In this document: positions 13,838 to 35,890 of the stretch, piece by piece
How the letters are laid out: each line of letters begins with the position of its first letter
How positions within the stretch are numbered: position 1 is the stretch's first letter
Assembly (NCBI GenBank): GCA_949282255.1
Contig: CASDPA010000003.1
Span: 1-64,000 of the forward strand
Length of the DNA: 64,000 nt
Direction: 5' to 3'
DNA from: an uncultured Spirochaetales bacterium
GTDB lineage: Bacteria > Spirochaetota > Spirochaetia > Sphaerochaetales > Sphaerochaetaceae
Translations under genes and position numbers: made by a program
The notes under the pieces: generated by a model
Database searches by the model: none
What the model was told of the DNA's origin: nothing
Seen by the model: only the letters and a program-made list of their open reading frames with translations

Positions 13838-15058
13838 CTAAAAGCTTAGTTTTCTTACAGCCTCCAAGGAATTTTCTATGGCTTCGGGAAGAGTGGCTCT
13901 TCCATCAAAAGCTTTCATATCTTTGAATCCCGTACCTGTTATCAGTACGACGACGCGGGCATTTTCTCCCAACGTATTTTTTATTTTCTCCACATCTTTT
14001 TTGTAGCATGCATATGATGTGGCTGCAGCAGGTTCTGCAAGAATTCCTGCAGTCCTGGCAAGCTCAAGCTGTGCATCAAGTATTTCCTCATCCTTTACTT
14101 TCACACACCAGCCATCGCTTTCTTTTATGTATTTTACGGCCATGCGTCCGTTTGCCGGAAGGTCGACGGAAATGCTGTCGGCTCTTGTCTCTGCCTTTAC
14201 AGGAAGGAATGCTCCTGTTTCAAAAGCTTTGGAAATGGCATCGGATTTTTCGCTTTGGCAGCAGACTATACGTGGCAGATGCCCGATGAGCCCCGCCTTT
14301 TTGAGATCGATGAAACCTTTCACCACTCCTGCTATTATGCATCCGTCTCCAACCGGCACATATACCGCATCCGGAGCTTTTCTACCCATCTGTTCAAATA
14401 ATTCTATGGAAATGCTCTTTTTACCTTCTATGGTCATGGGATTGTATGCTGTGTTCCGGTTTATTCCCCCGAAAAGCCTGGTATATTCTATGGAGAGCTT
14501 GAAGGCATCGTCATAGCTGCCTTTCACAGGAACCACATGGGCACCGTACAGCACGGACTGCATCAGCTTGTTTATTGGTGCGCTTTCAGGGACAAAGAGA
14601 ACGATATCAAGCCCGAGTGCGGCTCCAACTGCGCTCATTGCCGCTCCTGCATTTCCTGTGCTTGCCAAAGCTATCCTCTTTTCTCCGACGGCTTTTGCCT
14701 GTTCTGCCACAAGATAGCTTGCCCTGTCCTTGAACGATCCGGAAATCAGCTGGCTGTCAAGTTTGAAGAATGTGTTTTCCAGCCCATTGAGCCTGTTCAG
14801 CCGTTTTGCTTTCACCAGTGGCGTCACCCCCACGGGGAAGGCATCTTCCTCCGTGACGGGGTAGGGGTAGAAATCGGAAGGCTTGACATGCTTTTTTTCA
14901 GCTGCCGCTTTAAGCACGCTTTCATCGAGTTCCACTATAAGGTTGCCCTTATTGAAAGAGCTGCCATCGTTTTGTTTTGCGCATTCTGGGCATAAGTACA
15001 TCACATCTTCCGTTTCGTATGCCTTGCTGCAGTCGGAACAGATATATCTGAATCTCAT
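13838..15058 (-). CDS. thrC: Threonine synthase family PLP enzyme
   Basis: A 406-residue fold-type II PLP enzyme of the short ThrC class. An N-terminal zinc-ribbon (CSDC at about 8-11 and CPEC at 23-26) precedes the catalytic domain. The PLP lysine is in SGSFKDRAS, and ASTGNAGAAMSA and a C-terminal TGTGFKD motif are present. Classical ThrC makes threonine from O-phosphohomoserine. No other threonine genes are here; the gene follows a second PLP enzyme by 27 bp within the ygfK region, so a role as an amino acid lyase in that pathway is possible. Symbol given by homology only. Confidence 0.8.
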   Translation of the reverse strand: MRFRYICSDCSKAYETEDVMYLCPECAKQNDGSSFNKGNLIVELDESVLKAAAEKKHVKPSDFYPYPVTEEDAFPVGVTPLVKAKRLNRLNGLENTFFKLDSQLISGSFKDRASYLVAEQAKAVGEKRIALASTGNAGAAMSAVGAALGLDIVLFVPESAPINKLMQSVLYGAHVVPVKGSYDDAFKLSIEYTRLFGGINRNTAYNPMTIEGKKSISIELFEQMGRKAPDAVYVPVGDGCIIAGVVKGFIDLKKAGLIGHLPRIVCCQSEKSDAISKAFETGAFLPVKAETRADSISVDLPANGRMAVKYIKESDGWCVKVKDEEILDAQLELARTAGILAEPAAATSYACYKKDVEKIKNTLGENARVVVLITGTGFKDMKAFDGRATLPEAIENSLEAVRKLSF

Positions 15059-15085: not shown

Positions 15086-16552
15086 TTATTTTCCATCGAT
15101 CATGGAATTGAATTCTTCTATGAGCTCGTCGATCTGGGCAGTCAGTTTTGGAAGGCTCTTCCAATAAGAGCGGTCATACCATTGCCTGTTGAGTTCCTCA
15201 TAGGTTTTGCCCTGCTGTTCAACCCATGTGTAATATTTGAGGTTGTGGATCCTGAGCCTGTCGTAGTAGTTAAGCTCAAGCGCATTATCGATTCCCTGAT
15301 GCCTTAGTGCCGCGGCATGCACCTTTGCCGCTTCTGTTTCATTGAACGCACCCTGCTGTTCAGCGAGTTCCGCAAGGCGGGATGTATACATGACGGAGCT
15401 GTCTGTGAGAATGGTGAATACAACATCGTCTTCCTCGAGCTCGTAGTATTTTGCCATTTTGATTGCAGAAAGCAGGTTTCCGATGCCTGAGATGCCAAAG
15501 AGTTTTAGATCCTGGAGCTGTTGGTCTGTAAGCCCTTCCTTCTTGAGGTAGGATAGTCCGCTTTCTTCATTGAACAGCCTATAGATGTCCATGCAGTCCT
15601 GATCGTCTATTGAAAGGACCATGTCCGTGTTCCTTACATTATGGATCCATGGCACATGCTTGTCTCCGATACCTTCGATCCTATGGGCTCCGAAGCCGTT
15701 TCTCAGCAGAGTGGGGCACTGCAGCGCTTCTCCTGCTCCGATCTTTATTTCCGGATACACATCCTTAAGATGATCTCCTGCCGCAAGAGTCCCGCCGGAA
15801 CCGGTGGATGAAACATAGCCTTTTACGTTCTCAGGCTTGATTCCGAGCTGCTTCAGCACTTCCAGGATTGCAGCACCTGTCACCTCATAATGCCAGAGAT
15901 AGTTTTCAAACTGCTCGAACTGGTTGAATATTACGATGTGTGCTCCTCTTTGTGCATCAAGCTCGTGGCACTTGTCAAAAATTTCCTTGACATTTGATTC
16001 GCAACCAGGTGTGGCAATGATTTCTCCAGCCACGGTCTTGAGCCAATTGAACCTTTCCTGGCTCATATCCTCTGGAAGTATGGCTATGCTTTTGCAACCA
16101 AGCAGTGCTGAATTATATGCACCACCCCTGCAGTAATTTCCTGTTGAGGGCCAGACTGCCTGCTGTTCCACCGCATCGAAATTTCCTGTGACCAAGGCTG
16201 GTGCCAGGCAGGCATAGGTCGCACCTACCTTGTGTACGCCGCATGGGAACCATTTTCCTGCAAGAGCGAGGATACGCGCCTTTGTCCCAGTTATCTGCTT
16301 GGGAATCTCAATGAAATTGACTCCACCGAAAAGGCCGCCGGATTCCTTGGATTCGTTATGCCAATTTATTCTATATAAGTTAATGGGATCGACATCCCAC
16401 AGCCCTGTGACCTTGAGCTTGTCCAGAACATCCTTGCCGATGAGGTTGGGATTGATCATCTGCTTGAAGGTAGGGAGTTTGATATGTTTTTCTCTGCACC
16501 TTGCAGCATTCTTTTTGATGATGTCGTTTTTCTTTTCAAGATTGATGAGCAT
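15086..16552 (-). CDS. Fold-type II PLP-dependent enzyme (possible ammonia-lyase)
   Basis: A 488-residue PLP enzyme related to cysteine synthase and threonine dehydratase. The Schiff-base lysine is likely in GVHKVGATYA, the asparagine/serine loop in PSTGNYCRGGAYNSA and the phosphate-binding loop in SSTGSGGTLAAG. It is longer than E. coli YgeX (diaminopropionate ammonia-lyase, about 400 residues) and not closely alike. The position, divergent from ygfK and upstream of a ThrC-like gene, suggests that it does an equivalent job. ATG 16552 is chosen because GGAGG lies just upstream; the in-frame extension to 16612 would run through the promoter. Confidence 0.75.
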   Translation of the reverse strand: MLINLEKKNDIIKKNAARCREKHIKLPTFKQMINPNLIGKDVLDKLKVTGLWDVDPINLYRINWHNESKESGGLFGGVNFIEIPKQITGTKARILALAGKWFPCGVHKVGATYACLAPALVTGNFDAVEQQAVWPSTGNYCRGGAYNSALLGCKSIAILPEDMSQERFNWLKTVAGEIIATPGCESNVKEIFDKCHELDAQRGAHIVIFNQFEQFENYLWHYEVTGAAILEVLKQLGIKPENVKGYVSSTGSGGTLAAGDHLKDVYPEIKIGAGEALQCPTLLRNGFGAHRIEGIGDKHVPWIHNVRNTDMVLSIDDQDCMDIYRLFNEESGLSYLKKEGLTDQQLQDLKLFGISGIGNLLSAIKMAKYYELEEDDVVFTILTDSSVMYTSRLAELAEQQGAFNETEAAKVHAAALRHQGIDNALELNYYDRLRIHNLKYYTWVEQQGKTYEELNRQWYDRSYWKSLPKLTAQIDELIEEFNSMIDGK

Positions 16553-16580
16553 TTGCGCCTCCACTAAAATACTGATTTTA

Positions 16581-16608
16581 AGTATAATGGAGAAAGATAA
16601 ATTGTAAA
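16581..16608 (-). promoter_or_regulatory. Promoter of the PLP-enzyme pair
   Basis: On the minus strand, TTTACA (16603-16608), a 16 nt spacer and TATACT (16581-16586) give a leader of about 22 nt with GGAGG before ATG 16552. Confidence 0.65.
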
Positions 16609-16641
16609 GCAAAAAGTTAACAGATTGATTATTTTTAATCG

Positions 16642-17354: not shown

Positions 17355-17377
17355 TGGAAATGTAAAGGAGTGTGCTT

Positions 17378-20300
17378 ATGTCTGATATCATGAGACCAGT
17401 ACCGTTTTCCGAACTCTTGAACAGGATGGTGGGGGAGTTGAGGAACCACCACAGCGCTTTCGGGATTTCGGAGGAGTTGTTTTATAGAGGGGATGGCAAA
17501 AAAAAGATCAAGGTTTTTTCCCAGGAGTGCGAGACACCGCTCGGTCCGGCGGCGGGACCCCATACCCAGCTGGCACAGAACATCATCACCAGTTTTCTTG
17601 CCGGGGCAAGATTTATAGAGCTTAAAACCGTACAGGTGATGGATACCCTTGATATAGAAAAGCCTTGTATCGATGCAAGAGATGAAGGCTACAATGTGGA
17701 ATGGTCTACGGAATATACGCTCCCAAAAGCATTTGACGAGTATCTTAAGGCCTGGATAATTGTCCATATTCTAGATATGGCGATGAAGGATAAATGGGAA
17801 AGGCCGTCGTTCATTTTCAACATGTCCGTTGGCTATAATCTTGAAGGCATCAAGACAGAAAAGATGCAAAGATACATATCCTGCATGATGGATGCCAAAA
17901 AAGATGAGAAATTCGCTTCTTATATCGCAGAGGCCAAAGCCGCTTTGGAGGAGGGGCTTTTTGAAGGAACGATATTCGAAGGATGTGAAAAAAAGGTTGT
18001 CTCCAATCTTGATAAGATAAGTGCTTTCATAAGTCCTTCGGTCACCATATCGACAATGCATGGCTGCCCTCCCCATGAGATAGAAGCCATTTGTACCTAC
18101 ATGCTTACAGAAAAGAAGCTGGACACATTCGTCAAGCTCAATCCTACGCTGTTGGGCTACGATGAGGTCAGAAAGATATTGGATGATCTCGGTTACGGTT
18201 ATGTCGGCCTAAGGAGGGAGTCGTTTGAACACGATCTGCAGTATGAGGATGCTGTCGCCATGCTCAAGCGTCTTATTGCCCTTGCTAAAGAAAAGAGGAA
18301 GGGCTTTGGTGTGAAGCTGACCAATACGCTTGGATCTGTAAACGACCAAGGTGTTCTTCCAGGAGAAGAGATGTACATGTCTGGCCGTGCCCTTTTGCCG
18401 ATATCAACCACGGTTGCATACAGGCTTTCAAAGGAATTCGGCGGATCTCTTCCCGTTTCTTATTCCGGAGGTGCCAATGCTCTTACGATCAAGGATATCT
18501 TTGATACTGGAATAAGGCCGATCACGCTTGCAACCGATATGCTCAAGCCGGGCGGATATTCGAGAATGACGCAGATGGTGAAGATTCTTGATAATGATGA
18601 TTACTGGGACATGAAGTCGATAGACTGCGAGAAGCTCCATAGACTGACGGAAAAGGCAAGAGATAAGAAAAGCTATATTGCCAAGGATTTCCGTGGTACG
18701 AACAACACAAAGATCAAAAATCCTCTTCCTCTTTTTGATTGCTATGTAGCGCCTTGCGTGGAGGCTTGCCCCATTCATCAGATGATCCCCGATTATGTCG
18801 AGCTTGCCGGTGAAGGTAGGCTGGAGGAGGCTTTGGCTGTCATTTATCTTGATAATGCATTGCCGAACATGACTGGGTGGATATGTGACCATCAGTGTCA
18901 GAACCATTGTACAAGAATGGATTATGAGGGACCTGTCAAAATCAGGGAGGTAAAGCGTCAGTTGGCCGAAAAAGCTTTCGCTTCTTACAAAAAGGAGATA
19001 TGGGAAAAGCCTGAGGCGGAGGATGTCAAGGCTGCCGTGCTCGGTGCGGGGCCTGCAGGACTTGCAACCGCATTTTTCCTTGCACGCGCCGGTTTTGCCG
19101 TCGATGTTTTTGAGCGGGAAGCATGTGCTGGCGGAGTGGTCAAAAATGTGATACCTGATTTCAGGATTCCTTCCGAGGTTGTGGAAAAAGATGTGGCATT
19201 CATAGCTGATAACGGGGTTTCTTTCCATTTCTCGGCACAGAAGACCATTGCAGGACTCAAGGAGGAAGGTTTCAGCTTCATCTTTGTGGCTGTCGGAGCT
19301 GAAAAATCCTCGGATGCCAAGATTGCAGGAAATGGTGTGCGTGAAAGTGCGGTCAGCTATCTGAGAAGGACCAAAAAAGGTGAGAAGACCAATCTTGGAA
19401 AGCATGTGGTTGTCCTTGGAGGGGGAAACACGGCCATGGATGCATGCCGTCAGGCGATAAGAGCAGAAGGGGTCGAGGATGTGCGCATCGTATATAGGAG
19501 GAGCATTTCCGAGATGCCTGCCGATCATGAGGAGTATCAGGCGGCTTTGTCTGACGGGGTAGGCTTTGATTTTTTGGTAAACCCATACGAATTCAAAGAC
19601 GGAACGCTTTATCTTGATAAGATGGAGCTCGGAGAAAAGGATGCTTCAGGAAGAAGAAGGCCTGTGGCGACCGGTGAGAAATTATCAATTCCTTGCTCTT
19701 ATTTAATAACAGCGATTGGAGAAAAAGCCGATGATGAGAATCTCAGGACGCTCGGCTATCTGACTGAAGAGGATGGGGTTTACCTCGTAGGCGATGTATC
19801 CACAGGGCCCAGCACCGTCGTCAGATGCATTGCAGAAGCCCGTACGGCTGTGGAGGATGCGATAGACAAGATTTATTCATCCATGCTCGAGCAGGAAGAT
19901 GGGGATGAATGCTGCTGCGAGGATGAGCATGAGTGTTCATGTGGACATCATCACGAGGAAGGACATGAATGCTCTTGCGGCCATCATCATGATGATGAGG
20001 AAGAGGATGAGGAAGAAGAAAGCAGGGAGGAGATGACAAAGGCTGAGAATGCATATTTCAAGAATCTCAGGAAGAAGAAAAGCTCCATCACTTTCTCTGA
20101 AGACAAGGATTCCTCTTCATTCTTCAAGACTGAAGCCTCGAGATGTCTTGAATGCTCATATTACTGCAACAAGTGTGTGGAGGTTTGTCCGAACAGGGCT
20201 AACGTGGCTGTTGATATGAGAGCATGGGAAGCATTTGAGGATCCGTTCCAGATTGTTCATATCGATGCTTATTGCAACGAGTGTGGTAATTGCGAGACTT

Positions 20301-20560
20301 TCTGTCCTCACGATGGCGGTCCTTACAAGAAGAAATTCACTGTTTTCAGCCGCGGGGATGATTTTGAATCCAGTACCAACGATGGCTTCTTTGTCGATGA
20401 GGATAGAGCTCTTGTGGTAAGGGTTGCAGGAAAGGTTTATAAGGGAGGCTTTGACAAGGATGGTCTTGTCGTGGTCGATGGAGTCGCTCCCGAGGTATGT
20501 ATGCTGATGGATGAAATCTTTTTCAGCTATGATTATCTTCTCGGGGATGTGGAGGAGTGA
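17378..20560 (+). CDS. ygfK: YgfK, multidomain Fe-S flavoprotein (putative selenate reductase subunit)
   Basis: A 1060-residue YgfK. Domains: dihydroorotate-dehydrogenase-like barrel (1 to about 430, ETPLGPAAGPHTQLAQNI); an Fe-S helical domain as in dihydropyrimidine dehydrogenase (about 455-520; CVEACPIHQ, CDHQCQNHC); FAD domain (about 553, VLGAGPAGLATAF); NAD(P)H domain (about 677, VVLGGGNTAMDACR); C-terminal ferredoxin (about 922-978; CLECSYYCNKCVEVCP, CNECGNCETFCP). The name comes from selenate reduction work, but genomic context links it to anaerobic purine/pyrimidine-type catabolism. Residues 839-884 are an odd His/Cys/Glu/Asp-rich insertion with two HECSCGHHH repeats. ATG 17378 has AAGGAG 7 nt upstream. 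First gene of ygfK-ssnA-ygeY. Confidence 0.95.
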   Translation: MSDIMRPVPFSELLNRMVGELRNHHSAFGISEELFYRGDGKKKIKVFSQECETPLGPAAGPHTQLAQNIITSFLAGARFIELKTVQVMDTLDIEKPCIDARDEGYNVEWSTEYTLPKAFDEYLKAWIIVHILDMAMKDKWERPSFIFNMSVGYNLEGIKTEKMQRYISCMMDAKKDEKFASYIAEAKAALEEGLFEGTIFEGCEKKVVSNLDKISAFISPSVTISTMHGCPPHEIEAICTYMLTEKKLDTFVKLNPTLLGYDEVRKILDDLGYGYVGLRRESFEHDLQYEDAVAMLKRLIALAKEKRKGFGVKLTNTLGSVNDQGVLPGEEMYMSGRALLPISTTVAYRLSKEFGGSLPVSYSGGANALTIKDIFDTGIRPITLATDMLKPGGYSRMTQMVKILDNDDYWDMKSIDCEKLHRLTEKARDKKSYIAKDFRGTNNTKIKNPLPLFDCYVAPCVEACPIHQMIPDYVELAGEGRLEEALAVIYLDNALPNMTGWICDHQCQNHCTRMDYEGPVKIREVKRQLAEKAFASYKKEIWEKPEAEDVKAAVLGAGPAGLATAFFLARAGFAVDVFEREACAGGVVKNVIPDFRIPSEVVEKDVAFIADNGVSFHFSAQKTIAGLKEEGFSFIFVAVGAEKSSDAKIAGNGVRESAVSYLRRTKKGEKTNLGKHVVVLGGGNTAMDACRQAIRAEGVEDVRIVYRRSISEMPADHEEYQAALSDGVGFDFLVNPYEFKDGTLYLDKMELGEKDASGRRRPVATGEKLSIPCSYLITAIGEKADDENLRTLGYLTEEDGVYLVGDVSTGPSTVVRCIAEARTAVEDAIDKIYSSMLEQEDGDECCCEDEHECSCGHHHEEGHECSCGHHHDDEEEDEEEESREEMTKAENAYFKNLRKKKSSITFSEDKDSSSFFKTEASRCLECSYYCNKCVEVCPNRANVAVDMRAWEAFEDPFQIVHIDAYCNECGNCETFCPHDGGPYKKKFTVFSRGDDFESSTNDGFFVDEDRALVVRVAGKVYKGGFDKDGLVVVDGVAPEVCMLMDEIFFSYDYLLGDVEE

Positions 20561-21897
20561 TGGATATACTTATCAGGAATGTCCGTATCATGCAGACGGA
20601 ACCTCCGTTCGAGGTTTGTGAGGACATGGATGTCCTAATAAAGGGCACTGAGATAGCGGAAGTCGGAAAGGATCTTCCTGCGTCCGGATGCAAGGTGATC
20701 GAAGGGTCAGGTAAAACACTCATACCTGGAAACGTATGCTCCCATCACCACTATTATTCCGGCCTGTCTCGCGGAATGCTTATTTCCGCAGGGCCACAAA
20801 CCGATTTCATCCAGGTTTTGAAGGAATGGTGGTGGCGGCTTGACCGTGGTTTGGATGAGGAGGCCTGTTATTATTCCTCCCTCATCTGCAGCATGGATGC
20901 GATATTGAGCGGGACGACAGCTGCCATCGATCATCATGCATCACCTTCCTACATAGAAGGAAGCTTGGATACGATAGCTCGTGGTATGGAGGAAGTTGGT
21001 ATCCGTGGTGCCACCTGCTATGAAGTTACCGACCGCAATGAGGGTGAAAAGGAACTCAGACGTGGTGTGGATGAGAATATAGCCTTTGCAAAAAAAGTGG
21101 ATTCCAGGCTGAAAAGCGGGGAGGATGTGCTTGTGGAGGCCATGATAGGCGGCCATGCTCCGTTCACCATCCCTGAAAGCGGTATGGAAATGATGAAGGA
21201 AGCTGTGGATGAAACCGGAAGGGGAATGCATCTCCATATAGCCGAGGATAAGTATGATGTTGTCCATTCACATCATATTTACAATGAGGATATAATCGGC
21301 AGGTTGGACCGCCATGGCCTTTTGAGCAGTAAAACGCTTCTTGTCCATGGCATCCATATCAGCGGAAAAGAGGTGGATATCCTGAATGAGAGGGGCTGCT
21401 TCTTTGCTCATAACCCCCGAAGCAATATGAACAACCATGTCGGATACAACAGGCATTTGGCCGATATAAAGAAGCTTGTGCTTGGAACCGACGGCTGCGG
21501 CGGCAACATGTTCGAGGAGATAAAGATCGGATTTTTCAAGCATAAGGATGACGGTGGTCCGTGGTGGCCGTCCGATTTTCTTACCGCCCTTAATCGTGGC
21601 AACAGCCTGGTTGAGAGTGTTTTCTCAGGACGTGGAAAGTGGGGACGTGTGGAAAAAGGATATAAGGCCGACCTCGTGCTTCTTGATTATTATTCACCGA
21701 CTCCGCTGGTGAAAGAAAACGCCGCCACACATTTTGTATGGGGCATGAGTTCAAATGCGGTCAGGACTGTGATAGTCAATGGAAAAATAGTTCTTGAAGA
21801 CAGGGTGTTCCCGCATCTTGATGCGGATAAGATTTATGCAGAGGCCTCCCGTGTCGCGAAACGCGTCTGGGAGAAGGTGGATAAAATAAAATCATAG
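20560..21897 (+). CDS. ssnA: SsnA family aminohydrolase
   Basis: A 445-residue amidohydrolase-superfamily deaminase/chlorohydrolase of the SsnA family. Metal-site motifs in order: IPGNVCSHHHYYSGLSRG, HLHIAEDKYD, LLVHGIHIS and LGTDGCGGNMFEEI, with a C-terminal GYKADLVLLDY strand. It should hydrolyse a C-N bond of an imine or amino heterocycle, and is one of the genes required in the E. coli/Clostridium anaerobic urate pathway. Its ATG overlaps the ygfK stop (TGATG), with GGAGGAG inside the ygfK end, so translation is coupled. ygeY follows after 14 bp. Confidence 0.95.
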   Translation: MDILIRNVRIMQTEPPFEVCEDMDVLIKGTEIAEVGKDLPASGCKVIEGSGKTLIPGNVCSHHHYYSGLSRGMLISAGPQTDFIQVLKEWWWRLDRGLDEEACYYSSLICSMDAILSGTTAAIDHHASPSYIEGSLDTIARGMEEVGIRGATCYEVTDRNEGEKELRRGVDENIAFAKKVDSRLKSGEDVLVEAMIGGHAPFTIPESGMEMMKEAVDETGRGMHLHIAEDKYDVVHSHHIYNEDIIGRLDRHGLLSSKTLLVHGIHISGKEVDILNERGCFFAHNPRSNMNNHVGYNRHLADIKKLVLGTDGCGGNMFEEIKIGFFKHKDDGGPWWPSDFLTALNRGNSLVESVFSGRGKWGRVEKGYKADLVLLDYYSPTPLVKENAATHFVWGMSSNAVRTVIVNGKIVLEDRVFPHLDADKIYAEASRVAKRVWEKVDKIKS

Positions 21898-21911: not shown

Positions 21912-23135
21912 ATGAGTATCACCAAACAGATTCAGCAGCTGGCTGAAAAGTATCGCGATTATACGGCGGAAAACCTTTCCAAACTGGTAAAGACGAAAAG
22001 CTATTCCTCCAAGGAAGAGGATGTATGCCGTCTTCTTGTCGAGCTTTGCAAGGAAGCGGGATTCGACGATGTAAGGATCGACGGGCTCGGATCGGTAATC
22101 GGAAGAATTGGAAACGGCCCGAAGAAAATCGCATTTGACGCACACATCGACACGGTCGAGGTTGGCAACATGAAGAACTGGAAGTTCGATCCGTTCTCAG
22201 GTGAAATCAAGGATGGTCTGGTTCTTGGTCGCGGCGCAAGCGATCAAAAGGGCGGGGCCGCCTCAATGATCACCGCAGGAAGGATTTTGAAAGAACTTGG
22301 ATATGGTGGGGAATATACGGTCTATTTCACATTCACCGTTATGGAAGAGGATTGTGATGGAATGTGCTGGAAGTATCTGATCGAGGAAGAAGGATTCAAG
22401 CCGGATCTCATCGTTTCCACGGAGCCAACCAGCTGCAGGATCTATCGCGGACATAGGGGAAGGATGGAGATCAGGATCATCTTGCGCGGCATATCCTGCC
22501 ACGGTTCTGCTCCGGAGCGTGGAGTGAGTGCCGCTTACAAGGCTGCACGTGCCGCTCTTGCAATTGAGAAGCTTAACCAGGATCTTCAGCCTGATGATGA
22601 TAATTTCCTTGGCAAGGGAACCATCACCGTAAGCCAGATGGATGTGAAAGGCCCAAGCCAGTGCGCGGTTGCGGATTATGCAATGATTTATTGTGATAGG
22701 CGTCTGACATGGGGAGAGGATGCCGATCTTGCAATTGCCCAGGTCAGAAAATATGTCTCTGAAGCAACAGGAGATGATCCTGATTCGATCATCGTCGAGA
22801 TGCCGGATTATGAGAAGGTTGGCTGGACGAACCGTCCTTATTCCCAGGAGCTTTATTTCCCAACTTGGAAGATTCCGCAGGAGCATCCTCTTGTGCAGGC
22901 TGCGATTGCCGATTACAAGGCTCTTTATGCGAAGGATCCGGTGGTCGACAAATGGACTTTCAGCACAAACTGTGTAGCTACCACAGGTAGACATAAGATT
23001 CCTGCCATCGGATTCGGTCCTGGAGATGAGGCCCAGGCACATGCTCCGAACGAGATCAACAGGGTTGAGGATCTTGTGATCTGCTCTGGATTCTATGCCC
23101 TGCTGCCTTATTCGCTTGAAAAGAAGATTGATTGA
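21912..23135 (+). CDS. ygeY: YgeY, M20-family selenium-metabolism-linked hydrolase
   Basis: A 407-residue M20 zinc amidohydrolase/peptidase of the YgeY family. Metal and catalytic motifs: FDAHIDTVE, GRGASDQKGGAAS (ligand Asp), VMEEDCDGM (catalytic and ligand Glu), STEPTSCR, and a late HAPNE histidine. The dimerisation domain is at about 185-300. It is thought to split an amide in the urate/diaminopropionate route. Shine-Dalgarno AGGAG precedes the ATG. It is the last gene of ygfK-ssnA-ygeY and is followed by a strong terminator. Confidence 0.95.
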   Translation: MSITKQIQQLAEKYRDYTAENLSKLVKTKSYSSKEEDVCRLLVELCKEAGFDDVRIDGLGSVIGRIGNGPKKIAFDAHIDTVEVGNMKNWKFDPFSGEIKDGLVLGRGASDQKGGAASMITAGRILKELGYGGEYTVYFTFTVMEEDCDGMCWKYLIEEEGFKPDLIVSTEPTSCRIYRGHRGRMEIRIILRGISCHGSAPERGVSAAYKAARAALAIEKLNQDLQPDDDNFLGKGTITVSQMDVKGPSQCAVADYAMIYCDRRLTWGEDADLAIAQVRKYVSEATGDDPDSIIVEMPDYEKVGWTNRPYSQELYFPTWKIPQEHPLVQAAIADYKALYAKDPVVDKWTFSTNCVATTGRHKIPAIGFGPGDEAQAHAPNEINRVEDLVICSGFYALLPYSLEKKID

Positions 23136-26077: not shown

Positions 26078-28219
26078 ATGGGTGTAACGCACATTGATGA
26101 CAAGATCAGAAGAAGCGACGCCATCCAAAAGGCCCGTGGAGAGGCGAAATATGCGTCGGATTATTTCTTCGATGACATGTTGTATGCCAGGATGCTGAGA
26201 AGCAGCGTGCCTAGGGCGGTGATAACGTCCATAACATATCCTCCTCTTCCGGAGGGTTATTATTTCATCAGCGCAAAGGATATCCCCGAGGGAGGGATGA
26301 ATTCACTGCATATGATAGGAGACGACTGGAGATGCTTTGCCGATGGCGATGTCAGGTACGTCGGCGAGACGATCGGCCTTTTTGTCGGTTCTTCCAGAGC
26401 AGTGCTTGAAAGCCTTGTGGAAAATACTGTGGTTGGTTATGAGGAGAAGGAGCCTGCCGTGACGATCGATGATGCGATAGCAGTCAAGGGCGGACCGATA
26501 CTCGAAAATGGAAGCGACGTGATGTGCCAGCTTTATTGTGAAAAAGGGCGCAGCATGGATGAGGTTTTCAAAGAGGCTGATGAAATATACGAAGAGACTT
26601 TGGAAACTGGTTTCCAGGAACATGTGCACCTTGAAACGAACGGTGCCGTCGTAACAAGAGAAGGGGAGGATTACGTCTTTTACATCTCTGCCCAGTGCCC
26701 GTTCTATGTGAGGAAGTCGGTCGCACAGGTTCTCGGCATACCTTTGGAGCATGTCGTAGTACGCCAGAGCACCACAGGAGGCGCTTTCGGCGGCAAGGAG
26801 CATTTTCCTGATGTTCTCGCAGGTCCGCTGCTTGTGGCGGAGAGTATCATCAACAAGCCAATAAAGCTTATCTTCGACAGGAAGGAGGATATGCTTTATT
26901 CTGTCAAAAGGCATCCGTCGAAAACGATATATAAAACTGCGATCAAGGATAAGAAAGTCATAGGTACGCAAGGCTGGGTTTATTACAATTGCGGAGCATA
27001 CCTGTCGGCTTCCTTTGTCGTATTGCAGCGCGGAGTCTTCCATGCAAATGGTGTTTATGATATTCCGAACACCTATGTTGAAGGATTCGGAATGGCTACC
27101 AACACATTCCCAAGCGATGCGTTCAGGGGTTTTGGGGCACCTCAGACACTTTATGCGATCGAGATGCATCTCAATCATGTGGCGCGCAGGATCGGGGTGG
27201 ATCCAGTGGAGCTGAAGAAAAGCATGTTCATAAAGCAGGGCGGGGAGACCATCACCAACGGCCATATAGTTGAAAAGGTCATGCTGGATGAGATGCTTGA
27301 TACGATTGCAAAGGCCTCCGATTATTGGAGGAAAAGCAAAGAATACGGGTATGGAAGCGGACGTGGTATCGGAATGAGCTTCTACAACCATGGAGGCGCT
27401 TTCACAGGAAATGGCGAGCAGGCCATAATCAAGGCTCATGCAAGGCTGGTCAAGGTTGGCGACAAGGTCAGGATCGAGGTGGGATCCACTGAGATGGGAC
27501 AAGGGTTCCAGACCATCTTGAGGAAGATTGCGGCCGCTGTTCTTGAAATATCCATCGATGATGTGGATTATCCGAATCCGGATACATCCATAGTACCTGA
27601 CAGCGGTCCTACCGCCGCTTCCAGATCGACCATGATCGTTGGAAAGCTTATAGAGCGCTGTGCACTTGAGATGAAGGAACGCTGGGATGAAGGTGATTTT
27701 TCTGTAGAAAAGGAATATGAGCATCCGGATGGACATCCCTGGGATCAGTCGGTTTTCCGTGGAGATGCATATCTCGGCTACGGCTGGGGGGCCTGCTGCG
27801 TGGAGCTTGAGGTTGACAAGCTTACAAACGAGGTGAAGGTGCTTGGCATCTGGTCCAGCCATGAGATAGGAAAGGCGATAGACGAGCTTATCGTGCATGG
27901 CCAGATAAATGGAGGTGTCATCCAATCTCTTGGATATGCTTCGATGGAGAAGATGGAGAACAAGGGAGGATATTTCCGTCAGGAAAGCATGTCCGATTAC
28001 GTTGTCCCGACAAGCATGGATTTCCCAAAACAGGAATACTTCATACAGGAAAACCCCTATGAATGGGGACCATTCGGTGCAAAGGGCATGGGAGAGCTTG
28101 TTTTCAATGGTGCTGATGCTGCGTATTGTGATGCACTTGAACGGGCATTGGGAGTGGAGACCCACAAGATTCCACTTCCACCGGAAGATATCGAGGAGGC
28201 TTTGAAGAATGGACGCTAA
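26078..28219 (+). CDS. xdhA: Molybdenum hydroxylase large subunit (xanthine dehydrogenase-like)
   Basis: A 713-residue molybdopterin subunit of the xanthine oxidase family, separate from its Fe-S and FAD subunits. Family motifs: QSTTGGAFGGKE (about 230-241, cofactor binding), DAFRGFGAPQ (about 347), EVGSTEMGQG (about 467) and the catalytic glutamate in PFGAKGMGEL (about 665-674). It is the hydroxylation site for purine-type heterocycles. The linked selD, yqeB, yqeC and XdhC genes suggest that it carries the labile selenium ligand of SDMH enzymes; the sequence alone cannot prove selenium over sulfur. First gene of xdhA-xdhC-xdhB-ygfM-xdhD. Confidence 0.93.
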   Translation: MGVTHIDDKIRRSDAIQKARGEAKYASDYFFDDMLYARMLRSSVPRAVITSITYPPLPEGYYFISAKDIPEGGMNSLHMIGDDWRCFADGDVRYVGETIGLFVGSSRAVLESLVENTVVGYEEKEPAVTIDDAIAVKGGPILENGSDVMCQLYCEKGRSMDEVFKEADEIYEETLETGFQEHVHLETNGAVVTREGEDYVFYISAQCPFYVRKSVAQVLGIPLEHVVVRQSTTGGAFGGKEHFPDVLAGPLLVAESIINKPIKLIFDRKEDMLYSVKRHPSKTIYKTAIKDKKVIGTQGWVYYNCGAYLSASFVVLQRGVFHANGVYDIPNTYVEGFGMATNTFPSDAFRGFGAPQTLYAIEMHLNHVARRIGVDPVELKKSMFIKQGGETITNGHIVEKVMLDEMLDTIAKASDYWRKSKEYGYGSGRGIGMSFYNHGGAFTGNGEQAIIKAHARLVKVGDKVRIEVGSTEMGQGFQTILRKIAAAVLEISIDDVDYPNPDTSIVPDSGPTAASRSTMIVGKLIERCALEMKERWDEGDFSVEKEYEHPDGHPWDQSVFRGDAYLGYGWGACCVELEVDKLTNEVKVLGIWSSHEIGKAIDELIVHGQINGGVIQSLGYASMEKMENKGGYFRQESMSDYVVPTSMDFPKQEYFIQENPYEWGPFGAKGMGELVFNGADAAYCDALERALGVETHKIPLPPEDIEEALKNGR

Positions 28220-28688
28220 AATCACTTTCAGACTGAACGGAAACCAAGCGGTTTTCGTAGGCAATCCTCTTGCACGCCTTGTCGATGTGCTCAGGGAGGA
28301 TTACGGCCTGGTTGGAGTCAAGGAAGGCTGTGGAGAAGGGGAATGCGGGGCCTGCTCCGTCCTTAAGGATGGCAAGCTTGTCACAAGCTGCATCATCCCC
28401 ATGGCCAGTGTTGACGGCTGTGAGATATACACTATAGAGGGAATAAGGGATACGGATAAGGGACGGTGCATAATCGATGCCTTTGCTGACGGAGGTGCCG
28501 TACAATGTGGCTTCTGCATTCCAGGTATGGTGCTTGCCTCCTATGCCCTCCTTTCGGAAAATCCGGATCCCAGCGAAGCTGATATAAGGCTTGCCCTCAG
28601 CGGGAATATCTGCAGATGCACGGGGTATGATTTGATAATCGAAAGCGTTAAGCTCGCAGCAAAAAGAGGAGGTGGGCTATGGCAGTAG
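28209..28688 (+). CDS. xdhC: Molybdenum hydroxylase [2Fe-2S] subunit
   Basis: A 159-residue two-cluster ferredoxin subunit with all ligands. The plant-type cluster uses GCGEGECGACSVL and a later Cys in LVTSCI; the helical cluster uses CGFCIPGM and CRCTGY. It passes electrons from the molybdenum centre to the FAD subunit. The start overlaps xdhA by 11 bp and the end overlaps xdhB by 10 bp, so stoichiometric translation is likely. The symbol follows the E. coli XdhABC naming; it is unrelated to the XdhC maturation factor at 33.7 kb. Confidence 0.94.
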   Translation: MDAKITFRLNGNQAVFVGNPLARLVDVLREDYGLVGVKEGCGEGECGACSVLKDGKLVTSCIIPMASVDGCEIYTIEGIRDTDKGRCIIDAFADGGAVQCGFCIPGMVLASYALLSENPDPSEADIRLALSGNICRCTGYDLIIESVKLAAKRGGGLWQ

Positions 28689-29542
28689 AAGCCTGTTACA
28701 TTCCCAAAACATTGCAGGAAGCCCTTGAAATAAGAAAGAAAACAGGGGCCAAGCCGCTTGCCGGAGGTACCGATCTCATGGTCCAAGCGGCAAAGGGGAC
28801 TGGGATTGCCCCTACATTCCCGTTTCCTGTGATGGTGATTTCAAACATCAAGGAACTCAAGGGGATAATGGTGGAGGATAAAGAGGTTGTCATAAAGGCA
28901 CTGTCGACTCCTGCAGAGATTTCTTGCTGCGATTTTGTCCCTTATAATGTGAGGGCCGCCGCATCACAAATGGGTGCGGTTGCATTGCGCAACAGTGCGA
29001 CGATTGGAGGGAATATCGGGAATGCTTCACCAAAGGGAGATCTTCCCCAGCCTCTCATCCTGCTGGATGCGAAGGTGGAACTGGCGAGTCTTGAGGGTGT
29101 GAGAACGGTTCTTCTCGATGATTTCATCAAAGGGAGCAAAAAGACCGTGCTGCGTGATGATGAGATCATAACGGCGGTAAGGATACCCGAGGTTGCATAC
29201 ACACATCTTTTCTATCATAAGATCGGCACTAGGAGAGCAAATGCCATAAGCAAGCTCAGCCTTTCCTGCCTGGCTTTTATAGAAGATGGTGTTGTAAAGG
29301 ATTTCAGGGCTTCTACAGGAGCAGCAGGTCCGAAGGTCAGAAGAAGCCGTGATGCGGAAAACATCATAATAGGTCTGAAAGTCGATGATATTGCTGATAA
29401 TATCGGACGTTTTACCGATGCATGGAATTCCATATTGAGTCCTCATGCAATGCCCGAATGGAGAAGGGCAAGCACGAGAAGGATGCTTACATATTTTCTG
29501 GAGAAGCTTTCTTCGGGTGCCGAGCCGGGGATCATCGTCTGA
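28679..29542 (+). CDS. xdhB: Molybdenum hydroxylase FAD subunit
   Basis: A 287-residue CO dehydrogenase flavoprotein-like subunit. The FAD-binding loops are KPLAGGTDLMVQAAKG (near residue 25) and ATIGGNIGNASPKGD (near 105); a C-terminal CODH-flavoprotein domain follows (FRASTGAAGPKVRRS). It oxidises the Fe-S subunit and reduces NAD(P) or another acceptor. Start ATG 28679, within the end of the Fe-S gene and preceded by AGAGGAGG. It completes the first hydroxylase; a second FAD subunit follows 22 bp later. Confidence 0.93.
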   Translation: MAVEACYIPKTLQEALEIRKKTGAKPLAGGTDLMVQAAKGTGIAPTFPFPVMVISNIKELKGIMVEDKEVVIKALSTPAEISCCDFVPYNVRAAASQMGAVALRNSATIGGNIGNASPKGDLPQPLILLDAKVELASLEGVRTVLLDDFIKGSKKTVLRDDEIITAVRIPEVAYTHLFYHKIGTRRANAISKLSLSCLAFIEDGVVKDFRASTGAAGPKVRRSRDAENIIIGLKVDDIADNIGRFTDAWNSILSPHAMPEWRRASTRRMLTYFLEKLSSGAEPGIIV

Positions 29543-29564
29543 TTTGGATTTGAAAGGAGGTCAT

Positions 29565-30242
29565 GTGAGGGAAATACTGAAACCTGCAACAGCAAAGGAT
29601 GCTGTGAAAATGGTTGACAAAGGGGCATATATGCTCGGAGGTACGGAGATTTTACGGTTGGGCTCATCCGTGGATGCGGATATTGCAATCATAGATGTGT
29701 CGGCTGTCGTCCCTTCCGGCATATCGGTTTTCTCCAATAAAGTTGAAATCGGAGCCAATGCAACGTTTTCTGATATTCTTGAAGCCAAAGAGATTCCTTC
29801 CTTTTTGAAGGATGCGGCATCTGAAATGAAATCGCCGCAGCTTAGGAATGCTGCAACAATAGGCGGAAACATTGCAGCCAAAAGGGATGATTCATATCTT
29901 ATTCCTGCTCTTGTTGCAGCTGATGCTCATCTTGTAGTTGTAAATAAGAAAGGGGAAATCCACGAATGCCCGCTAACAAAGTACATTTTTAAAGATTGTT
30001 CATGTCTTATTCTGAAGGTTGTTTTCAATGCAGACGTTTCTGTGTCTGTCAAACGATTTTCACTGACCAGCCATTCCCATGCGGTTTTGACATGCGCCTT
30101 CGGAATCAATGAATGTTATGCTGTGAAGGGAGGTGGCCTCGCCTTATCTATCGAGGATGCGGTTTTTGTTTCCGATATGTACGGTTCTTCGGAATATAAG
30201 AGATATCTTGCCGATGAGGCAAAGGCTGAAGCAGGGAGGTGA
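29565..30242 (+). CDS. ygfM: Second FAD-binding subunit, YgfM-like
   Basis: A 225-residue FAD subunit, shorter than xdhB. It keeps the binding loops (YMLGGTEILRLG near residue 21, AATIGGNIAAKRDD near 102), but its C-terminal domain is small and divergent. Paired with the following XdhD, it reproduces the E. coli ygfM-xdhD order. GTG 29565 is chosen because AAGGAGG lies 4 nt upstream; homology begins at this point (REILKPATAKDA). The xdhD start follows the stop by 3 bp. Confidence 0.85.
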   Translation: MREILKPATAKDAVKMVDKGAYMLGGTEILRLGSSVDADIAIIDVSAVVPSGISVFSNKVEIGANATFSDILEAKEIPSFLKDAASEMKSPQLRNAATIGGNIAAKRDDSYLIPALVAADAHLVVVNKKGEIHECPLTKYIFKDCSCLILKVVFNADVSVSVKRFSLTSHSHAVLTCAFGINECYAVKGGGLALSIEDAVFVSDMYGSSEYKRYLADEAKAEAGR

Positions 30243-30245
30243 TTT

Positions 30246-33122
30246 ATGGAAATCAGGACAGTAATAAACAATAAGAATGTCATCCTGAAAGCAGAAGCCT
30301 GGGAGGACCTGAGGACCGTGCTCTATAGGAGCGGCTTTACTTCGTTGCGCGACAGCGACGACAGGGAGGGGTTTTGCGGAAGCGATACGATCGTTTTCAA
30401 CGGAAAGCTCATGTACTCGAACCTTATTTTAGCCTATAAGGCGGAGGGCGCGAACATTAGGACGCCTGAATCCCTTTCCATCGGCAGGAAGCCAAATGAC
30501 GTGCAGAAGGCGATGATTGCATCCGGTGTCGTTCAAAGCGCTTACAATGCTCCGGAAGCAGCTCTTATACTCACATATCTGCTTGAAAAGAACCCTCATC
30601 CTTCAAAAGAGGAGATAAAGGACGCACTTTCCGGCATTTTCATACGCGATGCGGGCTATGAGCATTATTATCTTGCTGTCCGTCTTGTGGAGGAGGAAAG
30701 ACAATACGGCTGCTACAAGACTCCCGTATCCCCATCTTTCAGGGACAATCTCAAGTTCGTAGGAAAACCGACTGGAAAAATCGACGGAGAAGCTCTTGTA
30801 ATGGGCGAGAAGATGTTTGTCGAAGATAAGGTGCTTCCCGGCGCGTATGTGCTTCTCGTTCTCAGAAGCCCCTTTGCACATGCATACATAAAGAGCATTG
30901 ACATATCAAGAGCGGAGAAGCTTGACGGGGTTGAGACCGTGATAACCTGCGAGAACTGCCCGGATGTATATTACATGCAGGCAGGACAGGGAAATCCCGA
31001 GCCCAGTCCTCATGACAGGAGGCTTTTCAACCGCAAGGTGAGGCATGTCGGGGATCGGGTTGCGGCAGTTGTTGCAAAGGATTACGAAACAGCAGAAAAG
31101 GCTCTCAGCCTGATTAATGTGGAATACGAGCCCCTTTTGCCTGTATTCACGGTCGAAGAGGCAATGGCTGAAGGTGCTCCTCTTGTTCACAACGGTTTTG
31201 TCGAATACCGCTCCGGGGCTCCAGCCGATCTTGATGAATACAACAAAGAGTATGAGAAGAAGGATGGCAAGGTCATATACCAATTCCCTCTACACGGGGA
31301 TATCAGGCATAACATTGCAGCTGGGGCGCATGGCGGGATCGGCGATATAGAAAAAGGGTTTGAAGAAGCGGATGCAATAGTCGATGAGACCTATCAGACC
31401 AGCCAGGTACAGTGTACTCCCCTAGAGCCTCACGTATGCTATTCACGCATCGAAGGCGGACGTCTTGTCATTCACGCATCCACCCAGGTGCCATATCATG
31501 TGAGGCGTATCGTTTCCTGGGTTTGCGAGATACCTGAGCATAAGGTGCATGTCATTAAAGAAAGAGTTGGAGGCGGATATGGAAGCAAGCAGGATGTGCT
31601 TGTGGAGGATCTCTGCGGCTATGCCACATGGATTACGGGAAAACCAATATATTACCGTAATTCCAGAGCTGAGGAGTTTTATGCAAATTCCACACGCCAT
31701 CCGATGAGGGTCCGCGTCAAGATGGGTGCAAAAAAGGATGGTAGGATAACTGCGATCTACATGGATGTCAGGGCGAACACAGGTCCGTATGGTAATCACT
31801 GCCTGACCGTTCCGATGAATGCCTCAAGCAAAACACTGCCTATTTTTGCAGTGGACAACATGTATTACGACCTTACTACTTATTATACGAACATCCCTCC
31901 GACAGGTGCCTACCAGGGCTATGGGGCTCCCAAGGGGTATTTCGGTATAGTTTCTTGTATGGGACAGCTTGCCATGAAGCTTGGAATCGATCCGCTTGAA
32001 ATGGCTAAAAAGAATATAGTGGATGAAGGCTACATGCTTGAGATCCTGCGCGGTCTTGGCGAAGGAAGGGAAGGTGCTGTGGTTCCTGTAGGTTCCTGTG
32101 GTCTTCGTGAAGCCTTGGACAAGGGCGGAAAGATGATCGATTGGGGAAAGAAGGAAGTATCGGATGATCCCGATTGGAAAATCGGCAAGGGCTTTGCAAT
32201 GATACAGCAGGGCTCAGGGCTTCCTGGACTGGATCATTCGAATGCCCAGTGCAAGCTTGTTTCAGATGGTTCTTTCATCGTCTTAAGCGGAGGCGCCGAT
32301 CTTGGCACCGGTCTTGATACCATTTCAGCAAAGTGCTGTGCCGAGGTTTTGAAGTGCTGCCTTTCGGATGTTTCCGTAGTCAGTGGAGATACCGACAGCT
32401 GTTTGTTTGATACAGGCGCTTATGCATCAAGTGGAACATATTTTTCCGGCAATGCTTCTTTGAACGCTGCAAAGGATCTTCTCAAAAAAATCATTCATGA
32501 AGCTGCCTTGGAGCTTGATGAAAAAGAGGATGACCTGTTTGCCGCCGAACCGGGCAAGATAGTTTCCAAGAAGAGTGGAAAGGAGCTTACGTACGCCCAG
32601 ATAGCGCATGCTGTGTTAAGTGGTGATGGAAGGGGAGCGCTAATCGGAACCGGTACGTTTGTCACCCCGAATTTCGCAGTTCCGTATGGAGCGCATTTTG
32701 CGCAGGTGGCGGTCAATGTTAAGACGGGGCAGGTTAAGGTGATGAAATTCTACGCCCTTCAGGATGCGGGCACTCCGATCAATCCAGAGCTTGCTCTCTG
32801 CCAGATGTATGGTGCTGTCCAGAAGAGCATAGGGCACACGCTTTATGAGAACATGGTGCTTGATAAGGACGGCAGGTGCATAAATGCCAATCTGACCGAT
32901 TATGGAGCTCCGATGATAGGTGAGTCTCCTGATGATTTCAAGGCGGTTCTGATAGACGTCAACGACCAGTACGGTCCGTTCGGGGCAAAGTCGATAAGCG
33001 AGATTGCCACAAACGGTGCTGCCCCCGCGATTGCCATGGCGATTGCCGATGCAACAGGTGTATGGGTGAGGTCCTGGCCAATAACTCCTGAAAAGATACT
33101 CAAGGGGCTTGGACGGTTCTGA
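30246..33122 (+). CDS. xdhD: XdhD, fused hydroxylase with ligand-less ferredoxin domain
   Basis: A 958-residue XdhD, the same length as E. coli XdhD (956). Residues 1-150 are a ferredoxin fold without cluster ligands: the loop reads REGFCGSDTIVFNG, and the CGFC and CRCTGY sites are replaced by VVQSAYNAP and IRDAGY. From about 165 on is the molybdopterin part: RVGGGYGSKQD (about 442), AYQGYGAPKG (about 555), GGADLGTG (about 680) and the catalytic glutamate in GPFGAKSISEI. E. coli XdhD, as I recall it, also lacks these cysteines. XdhD is part of the anaerobic urate/purine pathway. Electron transfer must use another route, possibly YgfK. A bidirectional-looking terminator follows. Confidence 0.93.
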   Translation: MEIRTVINNKNVILKAEAWEDLRTVLYRSGFTSLRDSDDREGFCGSDTIVFNGKLMYSNLILAYKAEGANIRTPESLSIGRKPNDVQKAMIASGVVQSAYNAPEAALILTYLLEKNPHPSKEEIKDALSGIFIRDAGYEHYYLAVRLVEEERQYGCYKTPVSPSFRDNLKFVGKPTGKIDGEALVMGEKMFVEDKVLPGAYVLLVLRSPFAHAYIKSIDISRAEKLDGVETVITCENCPDVYYMQAGQGNPEPSPHDRRLFNRKVRHVGDRVAAVVAKDYETAEKALSLINVEYEPLLPVFTVEEAMAEGAPLVHNGFVEYRSGAPADLDEYNKEYEKKDGKVIYQFPLHGDIRHNIAAGAHGGIGDIEKGFEEADAIVDETYQTSQVQCTPLEPHVCYSRIEGGRLVIHASTQVPYHVRRIVSWVCEIPEHKVHVIKERVGGGYGSKQDVLVEDLCGYATWITGKPIYYRNSRAEEFYANSTRHPMRVRVKMGAKKDGRITAIYMDVRANTGPYGNHCLTVPMNASSKTLPIFAVDNMYYDLTTYYTNIPPTGAYQGYGAPKGYFGIVSCMGQLAMKLGIDPLEMAKKNIVDEGYMLEILRGLGEGREGAVVPVGSCGLREALDKGGKMIDWGKKEVSDDPDWKIGKGFAMIQQGSGLPGLDHSNAQCKLVSDGSFIVLSGGADLGTGLDTISAKCCAEVLKCCLSDVSVVSGDTDSCLFDTGAYASSGTYFSGNASLNAAKDLLKKIIHEAALELDEKEDDLFAAEPGKIVSKKSGKELTYAQIAHAVLSGDGRGALIGTGTFVTPNFAVPYGAHFAQVAVNVKTGQVKVMKFYALQDAGTPINPELALCQMYGAVQKSIGHTLYENMVLDKDGRCINANLTDYGAPMIGESPDDFKAVLIDVNDQYGPFGAKSISEIATNGAAPAIAMAIADATGVWVRSWPITPEKILKGLGRF

Positions 33123-33716: not shown

Positions 33717-33744
33717 ATTCTACCTTATTACGGAGCAGGGTGAA
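33717..33744 (-). promoter_or_regulatory. tetR promoter, leaderless geometry
   Basis: On the minus strand, TTCACC (33739-33744), a 16 nt spacer and TAGAAT (33717-33722) are followed after 6 nt by ATG 33710. Confidence 0.5.
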
Positions 33745-34685
33745 AGATATTTGAACATTACAGATGCCTGTCCCCCACAGGCCATGCCCAGCGCGCCCTT
33801 ATCGGTCAGATCAAAATCGGATATTATCGTTTTCCCCTTTGAGGAAAGCAGGTCGAGAGCCTTTCTCTTTGCTTCCTCTTCCAGCGCTCCTCCTCCAATG
33901 CTAGCAATGCATTTTGTGGATGTAACGAGCATTTCCGCACCTTTTCTTGCAGGTCCAGAGCCGGTTTTTTTTATTATGCGGCAAAGCACCGCTTCTTCTT
34001 TCAGTTCACAAAGAGCCTTCAGTATTGCCAGATCGGCTTCAATGGAATCTTTTTCCCCGCGGTATGTGCAAATGATTTCTGCCATTATTGCAACAGCGAT
34101 TTCTTCTGCAGTTGCGGCCTTGATTTCAAGACCTATCGGTGAATGCACTTTTTCAAGCTCTTTTCTGTCAAAGCCTTCATGCTCCAGCTCATTCCATGTC
34201 GCTGCTATCTTTTTTTTCGAACCTATCATGCCAATATAGGAAGAACTGTTTTTAAGGGCTTTGCGGATACAGATGCCATCAGCTTTATGTCCATGTGTGA
34301 ATATTATGAAATACGGGTTGTCGAAATGGTGTTTTTCAAGATCAATATCAGAAAACGGAAGAACATTCCTTTGGGCATTCATAAAACGCTCCTTGCTGCA
34401 GTATTCTTTTCTATCGTCGAACACCACAGTTTTGAGACCTACAATCTCGGCTATTTTATATAGCGCGGAAGCTATGTGCCCGGCTCCAAACATGACAAGT
34501 GTAGGCGGCAGGCATATCGGATCTTCCAGGTTGTCCTCCCTTTTTTCGAATGCACAGGTTGAATCGATCAGCTTTCCATTAAGAAAAAGCGCTTCCTCTC
34601 CCGCTATATCAGATGCCACACATAAGCTTCTTACAAGCTGCGCCATGCATAGTGTATCCTTCAGCCTCCTGTAATAGTTATCCAT
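33720..34685 (-). CDS. XdhC/CoxI-family hydroxylase maturation factor, permuted domain order
   Basis: A 321-residue XdhC-type protein that inserts the terminal sulfur or selenium ligand into molybdenum hydroxylases. The Rossmann domain comes first ([17 protein letters not shown] near 80, IGMIGSKKK near 160, [24 protein letters not shown]-type end). The XdhC_CoxI domain comes last ([40 protein letters not shown]). Usual XdhC proteins have the reverse order. ATG 34685 follows AAGGAGGAG and overlaps the CSD stop by 8 bp. A second, normally ordered XdhC domain is fused to YqeB at 48.7 kb. Confidence 0.85.
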
Positions 34686-35802
34686 TGATCTCCTCCTTGA
34701 TAGCGCATATGGTTTTATCGATCTCATCTTTTTTCGTGAACGGCCCAGGTGAGAGCCTCAGCGTTCCCCGTGGGTATGTGCCAAGGCTCACATGTTCGAT
34801 CGGTGCGCAGTGCAGACCCACCCGGCATTCTATTTTATGATTTTTATAAAGTCTGTCCGCAAGCAATGCCAGATCCATCTTCTCGGTTGAGATCGATACC
34901 GCACCTGTCCTCTTTTCCCCACTTCTTGGTCCTATCACCCTGATATTGTCAATGCTTTCCAGCTCTGAGACCAGATGGAAAATGTTTTGTTCATATTTCT
35001 TGCATAGGTCATCGAAATTGGAATTGATGTAGTCAAGCGCGGCTTTCAGTCCGAAAAGGCCAGGCAGATTCCTTGTTCCCGCTTCAAATTTGTCAGGCAG
35101 AATGTCCGGCATTTCGATGCTGTCGGAAAAAGAACCCGTTCCACCTGCAATCAGAGGTGATGTCTTTATTGCAATCTCCCTGTCCAGGATCATTCCCCCT
35201 GTTCCCTGCGGTCCCAACAACCCCTTGTGCCCGGTAAAGAAAACACCCGCAATCCCCATTTCCTTCATATTGATCCTTACAAACGGCGCTGCTTGGGCCG
35301 TATCTAAAAAAAGGGGTAGAAAGGCTTTTCTGCATAGCTGGGAAAGGACGGCAAGATCCTCTATCCTGCCTGAAACATTGCTTGAGGCGTTTGCAATGAC
35401 GGCTTTTACATTTTTTGAGACCAGATTTGGAAAACAGGAAAAATTTGTGATGCCGTTCTCATCCACAGGTATTCTCACACTTTTGACACCATGGCAGGTA
35501 AGAGCTCTTTCAACGGCGTTATGCTCGTGTGATGTGGTGATGACGATGTCATCCCTGTTAAAGTATCCATGCACGAATATGTTCACAGCTTCCGTGACGT
35601 TCTGCGTGAAAAAGACCGTATCTGCATCCTCATGTCCGAATAGCGATGCAATATCCTCCCGGAGGGCACAGATCGCATCTTCCTCCTGATATGCGTTTTC
35701 GCTGTGTGTCCTTGAGAGATTGCAGCCGAGCTCGTTCATGAAATATGATACGGCATTTGCCACTCCTGGGGCTTTTGGCCAGCTCGTGGCCGAATTATCC
35801 AT
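34678..35802 (-). CDS. Cysteine desulfurase / selenocysteine lyase-like enzyme
   Basis: A 374-residue class V aminotransferase-fold enzyme of the NifS/SufS/CsdB group. The family N-terminus is [12 protein letters not shown]; the PLP lysine is in [16 protein letters not shown] and the catalytic cysteine in [12 protein letters not shown]. Enzymes of this kind in SDMH clusters are believed to release selenium (or sulfur) from selenocysteine or cysteine for SelD and hydroxylase maturation. ATG 35802 has GGAAAGGA 5 nt upstream; two further in-frame ATGs (35817, 35841) are possible but lack a ribosome site. It is divergent from the selenium transporter yedE. Confidence 0.88.
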
Positions 35803-35890
35803 ATATGTCCTTTCCATGGGATAATTGTATATCTTTTCCATTGCGTATGCAAAAAGATAATGTTACCATCTTATCAATCAGGAGGGGCTG

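Follow-up and report, generated by a model that had tools for sequence, protein, structure and literature searches.

In SlyD (C-terminal His/Cys tail) and in HypB and UreE (His stretches), a disordered, metal-binding Cys/His stretch is appended to an enzyme as a tail or end with a link to nickel. In ZnuA/AdcA an acidic His loop lies inside a folded, extracytoplasmic transport protein, and bacterial metallothioneins are small, stand-alone folded proteins with CxC-rich runs. The COG0523 zinc GTPases (ZigA/ZagA/YeiR type) are cytosolic proteins with an acidic, His-rich insertion and a CxCC site; members outside cobalamin synthesis have been tied to zinc limitation (PMC2770081), and zinc was preferred by the two members tested (PMC7895991). 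E. coli YgfK has been demonstrated to act as a flavin-dependent yanthine reductase and not as a selenate reductase; it reduces yanthine (2,8-dioxopurine) only when combined with SsnA, the assay containing 1 mM ZnCl2 (PMC12507026).

The window (the whole 64,000-nucleotide stretch of DNA analysed here) belongs to a 2.35 Mb metagenome-assembled genome of Spirochaetota (G000), a near relative of which is Candidatus Ornithospirochaeta avicola. Its ygfK open reading frame opens at GTG 17372 (17372-20560), and the ATG at 17378 is most likely the true start, by match to E. coli MGDIMRP. The predicted protein of 1060 residues was assigned to the YgfK family on a full-length match to TIGR03315 (1291.7 bits, curated cut-off 835.3, residues 1-1054). 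As in E. coli, the domain order is the same, identity is 50% along the whole length, ssnA lies next door and reductive urate genes are present; by this likeness the protein, predicted to be cytosolic, is probably a yanthine reductase (PMC12507026). AlphaFold2 models of this YgfK and four relatives had a mean pLDDT of 39.5, too low for use.

The models for ssnA, ygeY and xdhD scored above their cut-offs (Table 1), and the core genes for reductive urate degradation are predicted within the window. The ssnA start codon (ATG) shares one base with the ygfK stop, and the two genes adjoin in almost every locus in which the flank is present. Two adjacent ygeX-like genes for PLP-dependent lyase/synthase-like proteins (13838-15058 and 15086-16612) also lie in the urate cluster. 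Beside xdhD, an XdhC-like gene, a class V aminotransferase and a YeeE/YedE-like transporter (33720-36958) resemble a selenium/sulfur supply set.

Table 1. Features of ygfK and its neighbours in the window; YgfK residue numbers leave out the start Met.
Feature	Position	Strand	Basis or remark
ygfK CDS	17378..20560	+	TIGR03315 match; 50% identity to E. coli YgfK
FAD/NAD(P)H part (Pyr_redox_2), residues 551-819	19031..19837	+	Pfam PF07992, E 1.1e-20
Acidic His/Cys linker, residues 837-884 (48)	19889..20032	+	Absent from YgfK outside this group
CCC, degenerate first unit	19910..19918	+	
HECSCGHHH copy 1	19928..19954	+	CxCGHHH core 19934-19954
HECSCGHHH copy 2	19964..19990	+	CxCGHHH core 19970-19990
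Acidic tail DDEEEDEEEESREE of linker	19991..20032	+	
C-terminal 2x[4Fe-4S] ferredoxin, residues 922-984	20144..20332	+	Weak Pfam Fer4_9/Fer4_7; conserved C..C..Y.C..C..VCP
ssnA, amidohydrolase partner of YgfK	20560..21897	+	TIGR03314 539.6 bits, cut-off 455.5
ygeY, M20 metallopeptidase family, urate pathway	21912..23135	+	TIGR03526/NF009555 above cut-off
XdhA/B/C-like set	26078-30242		
xdhD, molybdenum hydroxylase, first reductive urate degradation step	30246..33122	+	TIGR03313 1214.6 bits, cut-off 1101.9

The first-pass annotation had reported a His/Cys/acid-rich segment in YgfK, with CCC and two HECSCGHHH copies in different codons, and this description held. The linker (EQEDGDECCCEDEHECSCGHHHEEGHECSCGHHHDDEEEDEEEESREE), which separates the FAD/NAD(P)H part from the C-terminal ferredoxin, contains 24 Asp/Glu (E18 H8 C7 D6 G4 S3 Q1 R1); the two copies start 12 residues apart and differ in 6/9 codons, six synonymously and none non-synonymously. 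The annotation took the insertion not to be known from E. coli YgfK, and the YgfK of strain MG1655 indeed has a short linker with no such run at that place, where the spirochaete protein adds the acidic CxCGHxH segment. A search of the G000 genome with the linker peptide and motif gave matches at the YgfK site only. The linker segment alone had no meaningful match among PDB sequences and no metallothionein match, and no earlier description of the insertion was found in a literature search.

The segment shares features with the COG0523, SlyD/HypB/UreE, ZnuA/AdcA and metallothionein systems described above and differs from each. A profile search found no CobW match among the YgfK families, and, unlike COG0523 proteins, the YgfK segment has neither a GTPase nor the CxCC site and sits in a redox enzyme. 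Compared with SlyD, HypB and UreE, it is an internal linker of a flavoenzyme with repeated acidic CxCGHxH units and a zinc-linked distribution, and YgfK gave no PPIase match. The acidic His loop of ZnuA/AdcA is the likeness within a folded protein, although YgfK is predicted to be cytosolic. Metallothioneins share the CxC-rich runs, but this segment forms part of a 1060-residue enzyme and, like most YgfK linkers, is dominated by acid and His.

Homologues were compared in 139 genomes from 22 genera of the family, from which about 128 YgfK linkers were read. An acidic, Cys/His-rich linker was present at exactly the same point in most genera. The comparison did not return the random low-complexity linker without a conserved His/Cys pattern against which the first-pass annotation had set its claim. 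Within the genus (some 40 species), acid and CxC were present in every linker, and one to five CxCGHxH-like units in nearly all. Across genera it took the form of CxCGHxH, CxCGHDH, CxCGCHDH, CHCHDH, HEHVHDEHC or metallothionein-like Cys runs; several genera had many His with only 0-2 Cys (HEHVHDEHCDHDH), and the linker cores of L139 (G497) and L142 (G445) had 19 Cys plus 8-11 His. It was reduced to acid only or lost in a few lineages (L101, L111-L114, L122, L123, L145), of which L111-L114 have purely acidic spacers without Cys/His, and some His-less linkers retain CxC. YgfK of deeper Spirochaetota, Enterococcus and Collinsella, as of E. coli, had a short linker with no Cys/His run in the comparison of homologues. 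Between close species the linker usually changed faster than the body, mainly by gain and loss of units, and units persisted; the number of unit copies, the precise motif and the proportion of Cys to His turned over quickly across the family. Acid and Cys/His are kept and the motif is freely exchanged, which fits a buffer without one fixed geometry.

To relate the linker to metal genes, a His linker was defined as at least 2 His, and genomes of at least 80% completeness were compared (98 with, 19 without); these are mostly metagenome-assembled, and absences can be assembly gaps. ZnuA-family proteins were found in 92/98 genomes with a His linker vs. 6/19 without (Fisher P = 8e-9, Pagel P = 0.007), and a ZigA-like COG0523 GTPase in 3/98 vs. 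14/19 (Fisher P = 1.5e-11, Pagel P about 2e-5), where the Pagel correlated-evolution test was a home-made implementation run on a FastTree gene tree of YgfK minus the linker and not on a species tree. ZnuA-family proteins can carry Mn or Fe. The GTPase (375-449 residues, GCICC, own acidic His loop) had ZigA as its best NCBIfam match, with a score below the ZigA cut-off, and in this family it occurs mostly where YgfK is without a His linker. In independent pairs, linker and COG0523 differed in opposite ways in about 4.8 of 8 and in the same way in 0.0, for which the sign test is marginal when taken alone (median P = 0.0625). The direction of the association was the same at His thresholds from 1 to 6. 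Exceptions were five genomes with neither His linker nor COG0523, three with both, and some linkers without ZnuA. The FecCD control was uninformative (136/138 genomes). These data suggest that the His linker and the ZigA-like GTPase solve the same zinc-distribution problem in alternative ways; the complementarity could also stem from shared ecology. A nickel or cobalt reading was rejected on distribution: CbiM was found in 1/138 genomes and the window's genome had no match to a G3E GTPase (HypB/UreG type included). With CbiM taken as the uptake gene, the co-occurrence expected of a nickel storage or delivery protein was not seen.

On this distribution and the zinc literature for COG0523 (PMC2770081, PMC7895991), the linker metal is taken to be zinc. 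The favoured reading, to which a probability of about 0.55 was given, is that the segment is a presumably disordered, cytosolic zinc-binding linker that serves as a buffer or store within YgfK. Lying between the FAD/NAD(P)H part and the ferredoxin, an acidic chain with 1-5 CxCGHxH-type units would hold several labile Zn(II) in mixed Cys/His/carboxylate sites, so that a catabolic enzyme, which we infer to be abundant, would carry the zinc. Motif and distribution suggest that the linker may, as a zinc store or buffer would, bind several Zn(II) reversibly. Because YgfK acts with SsnA, whose gene comes next and overlaps ygfK, the linker may supply zinc locally to SsnA, and possibly to other metallohydrolases of the pathway; gene order and partnership are the basis for this. 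Counted in favour of the store were also that the partner of YgfK and the downstream enzymes are metallohydrolases, that ZnCl2 was present in the published YgfK-SsnA assay (PMC12507026), and that the units recur in a TPR tail and in the loop of a zinc-binding ZnuA/AdcA-type protein (see below). Where the first-pass annotation had offered a metal sensor, a store or a selenium-handling site, the store fits best.

The same ligands could instead form a general sink for soft or borderline metals (Cu, Cd, excess Zn), whose role in YgfK would be to shield its Fe-S clusters and thiols and not to supply metal. The linker does adjoin two [4Fe-4S] clusters, some linkers are metallothionein-like with 19 Cys (L139, L142) and the high turnover would fit, but many linkers are His-rich with 0-2 Cys, and the link to a zinc importer and a GTPase of the zinc-limitation type points to scarcity and not excess; protection was accordingly judged rather unlikely.

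The linker stands just where the FAD/NAD part meets the ferredoxin, a place that would also suit a regulatory hinge which metal folds, coupling or uncoupling the two so that YgfK activity reads metal status. However, length, copy number and ligand type differ between close species (linker identity to the nearest relative was 69% vs. 96% for the YgfK body), several relatives lost the linker and kept YgfK, and a switch should be more constrained. Such a hinge is improbable, and the same fast turnover makes the dedicated metal sensor of the first-pass annotation unlikely.

Fast length change, and the purely acidic spacers without Cys/His in some relatives (L111-L114), are what a neutral, easily expanding acidic low-complexity spacer without metal function would show. 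Against this, CxCGHxH was counted 65 times in 37 distinct linkers of the genus, where 1000 residue shuffles gave a mean of 0.0 and a maximum of 1, and 20 times in 66 linkers of other genera (shuffle maximum 2). When units of the same protein were compared in 58 pairs from the genus, 162 differences were synonymous and 118 non-synonymous, which gave a dN/dS-like ratio of 0.14, a crude count in which pairs are not independent and about five times more sites are non-synonymous. With the synonymous-only codon differences between the window's two copies, these results bear out the first-pass view that the peptide repeat is kept by selection: the Cys/His/acid linker is conserved, under selection and fast-turning. 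Conserved CxCGHxH units in an acidic context are naturally read as binding metal, and this part of the first-pass interpretation is supported. The motif also recurs in a TPR tail and one ZnuA loop, described below, and with the zinc-gene association these observations leave the neutral spacer with quite a small probability.

When the family was scanned for the pattern, YgfK accounted for most CxCGHxH matches from the genus, and the others lay mainly in a cytosolic TPR protein, within its C-terminal tail (L153-L165, L168). The window's own genome encodes a TPR protein (L173, G000:C28:5217-6488) with four tandem HCCHNHEH units in its C-terminal tail. In 28 genomes the YgfK linker and the TPR tail covaried weakly, a trend that is at most suggestive (rho = 0.36, P = 0.06). 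In G365 the TPR tail has 34 His and 14 Cys, and the YgfK linker is lost. In G422 the YgfK linker has lost Cys and His, and a ZnuA/AdcA-like zinc-binding protein (L169, G422:C19:5382-6461) has a loop made of a HECCGHDH-type repeat array, that is, CGHxH-type units. Elsewhere in the phylum, the motif sits in proteins identified by eye as COG0523 GTPases and a P-type metal ATPase. A protein family unrelated to YgfK, from another family of the phylum (L051 in G158, L052 in G144), has an internal CSCGHHH-rich insertion near the N-terminal half. In other Spirochaetota, most six-frame CxCGHHH matches that lay outside genes were due to chance frames, and these were discarded.

A selenium-handling site for the surrounding cluster, as the selenium-related names of TIGR03315/03313/03314 and the nearby YedE/YeeE-like transporter and aminotransferase might imply, is very improbable, given linkers with 0-2 Cys, the association with zinc genes, the absence of the linker from YgfK of other phyla and a yanthine reductase function shown without selenium (PMC12507026).

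A zinc buffer or store of this kind would bear on the question of where spare zinc is held in bacteria and which enzymes have first call on it, and a family-wide Cys/His store in a urate redox enzyme, mostly exclusive with a zinc-delivery GTPase, would be a concrete and testable case. We tentatively propose that in Sphaerochaetaceae-like spirochaetes YgfK may be a genetically encoded zinc bank, that this bank and the ZigA-type GTPase may replace each other in evolution, and that intracellular zinc distribution may thereby be built into urate catabolism. Metal supply would then be linked to the degradation of uric acid in the gut, a pathway of medical interest (gout).
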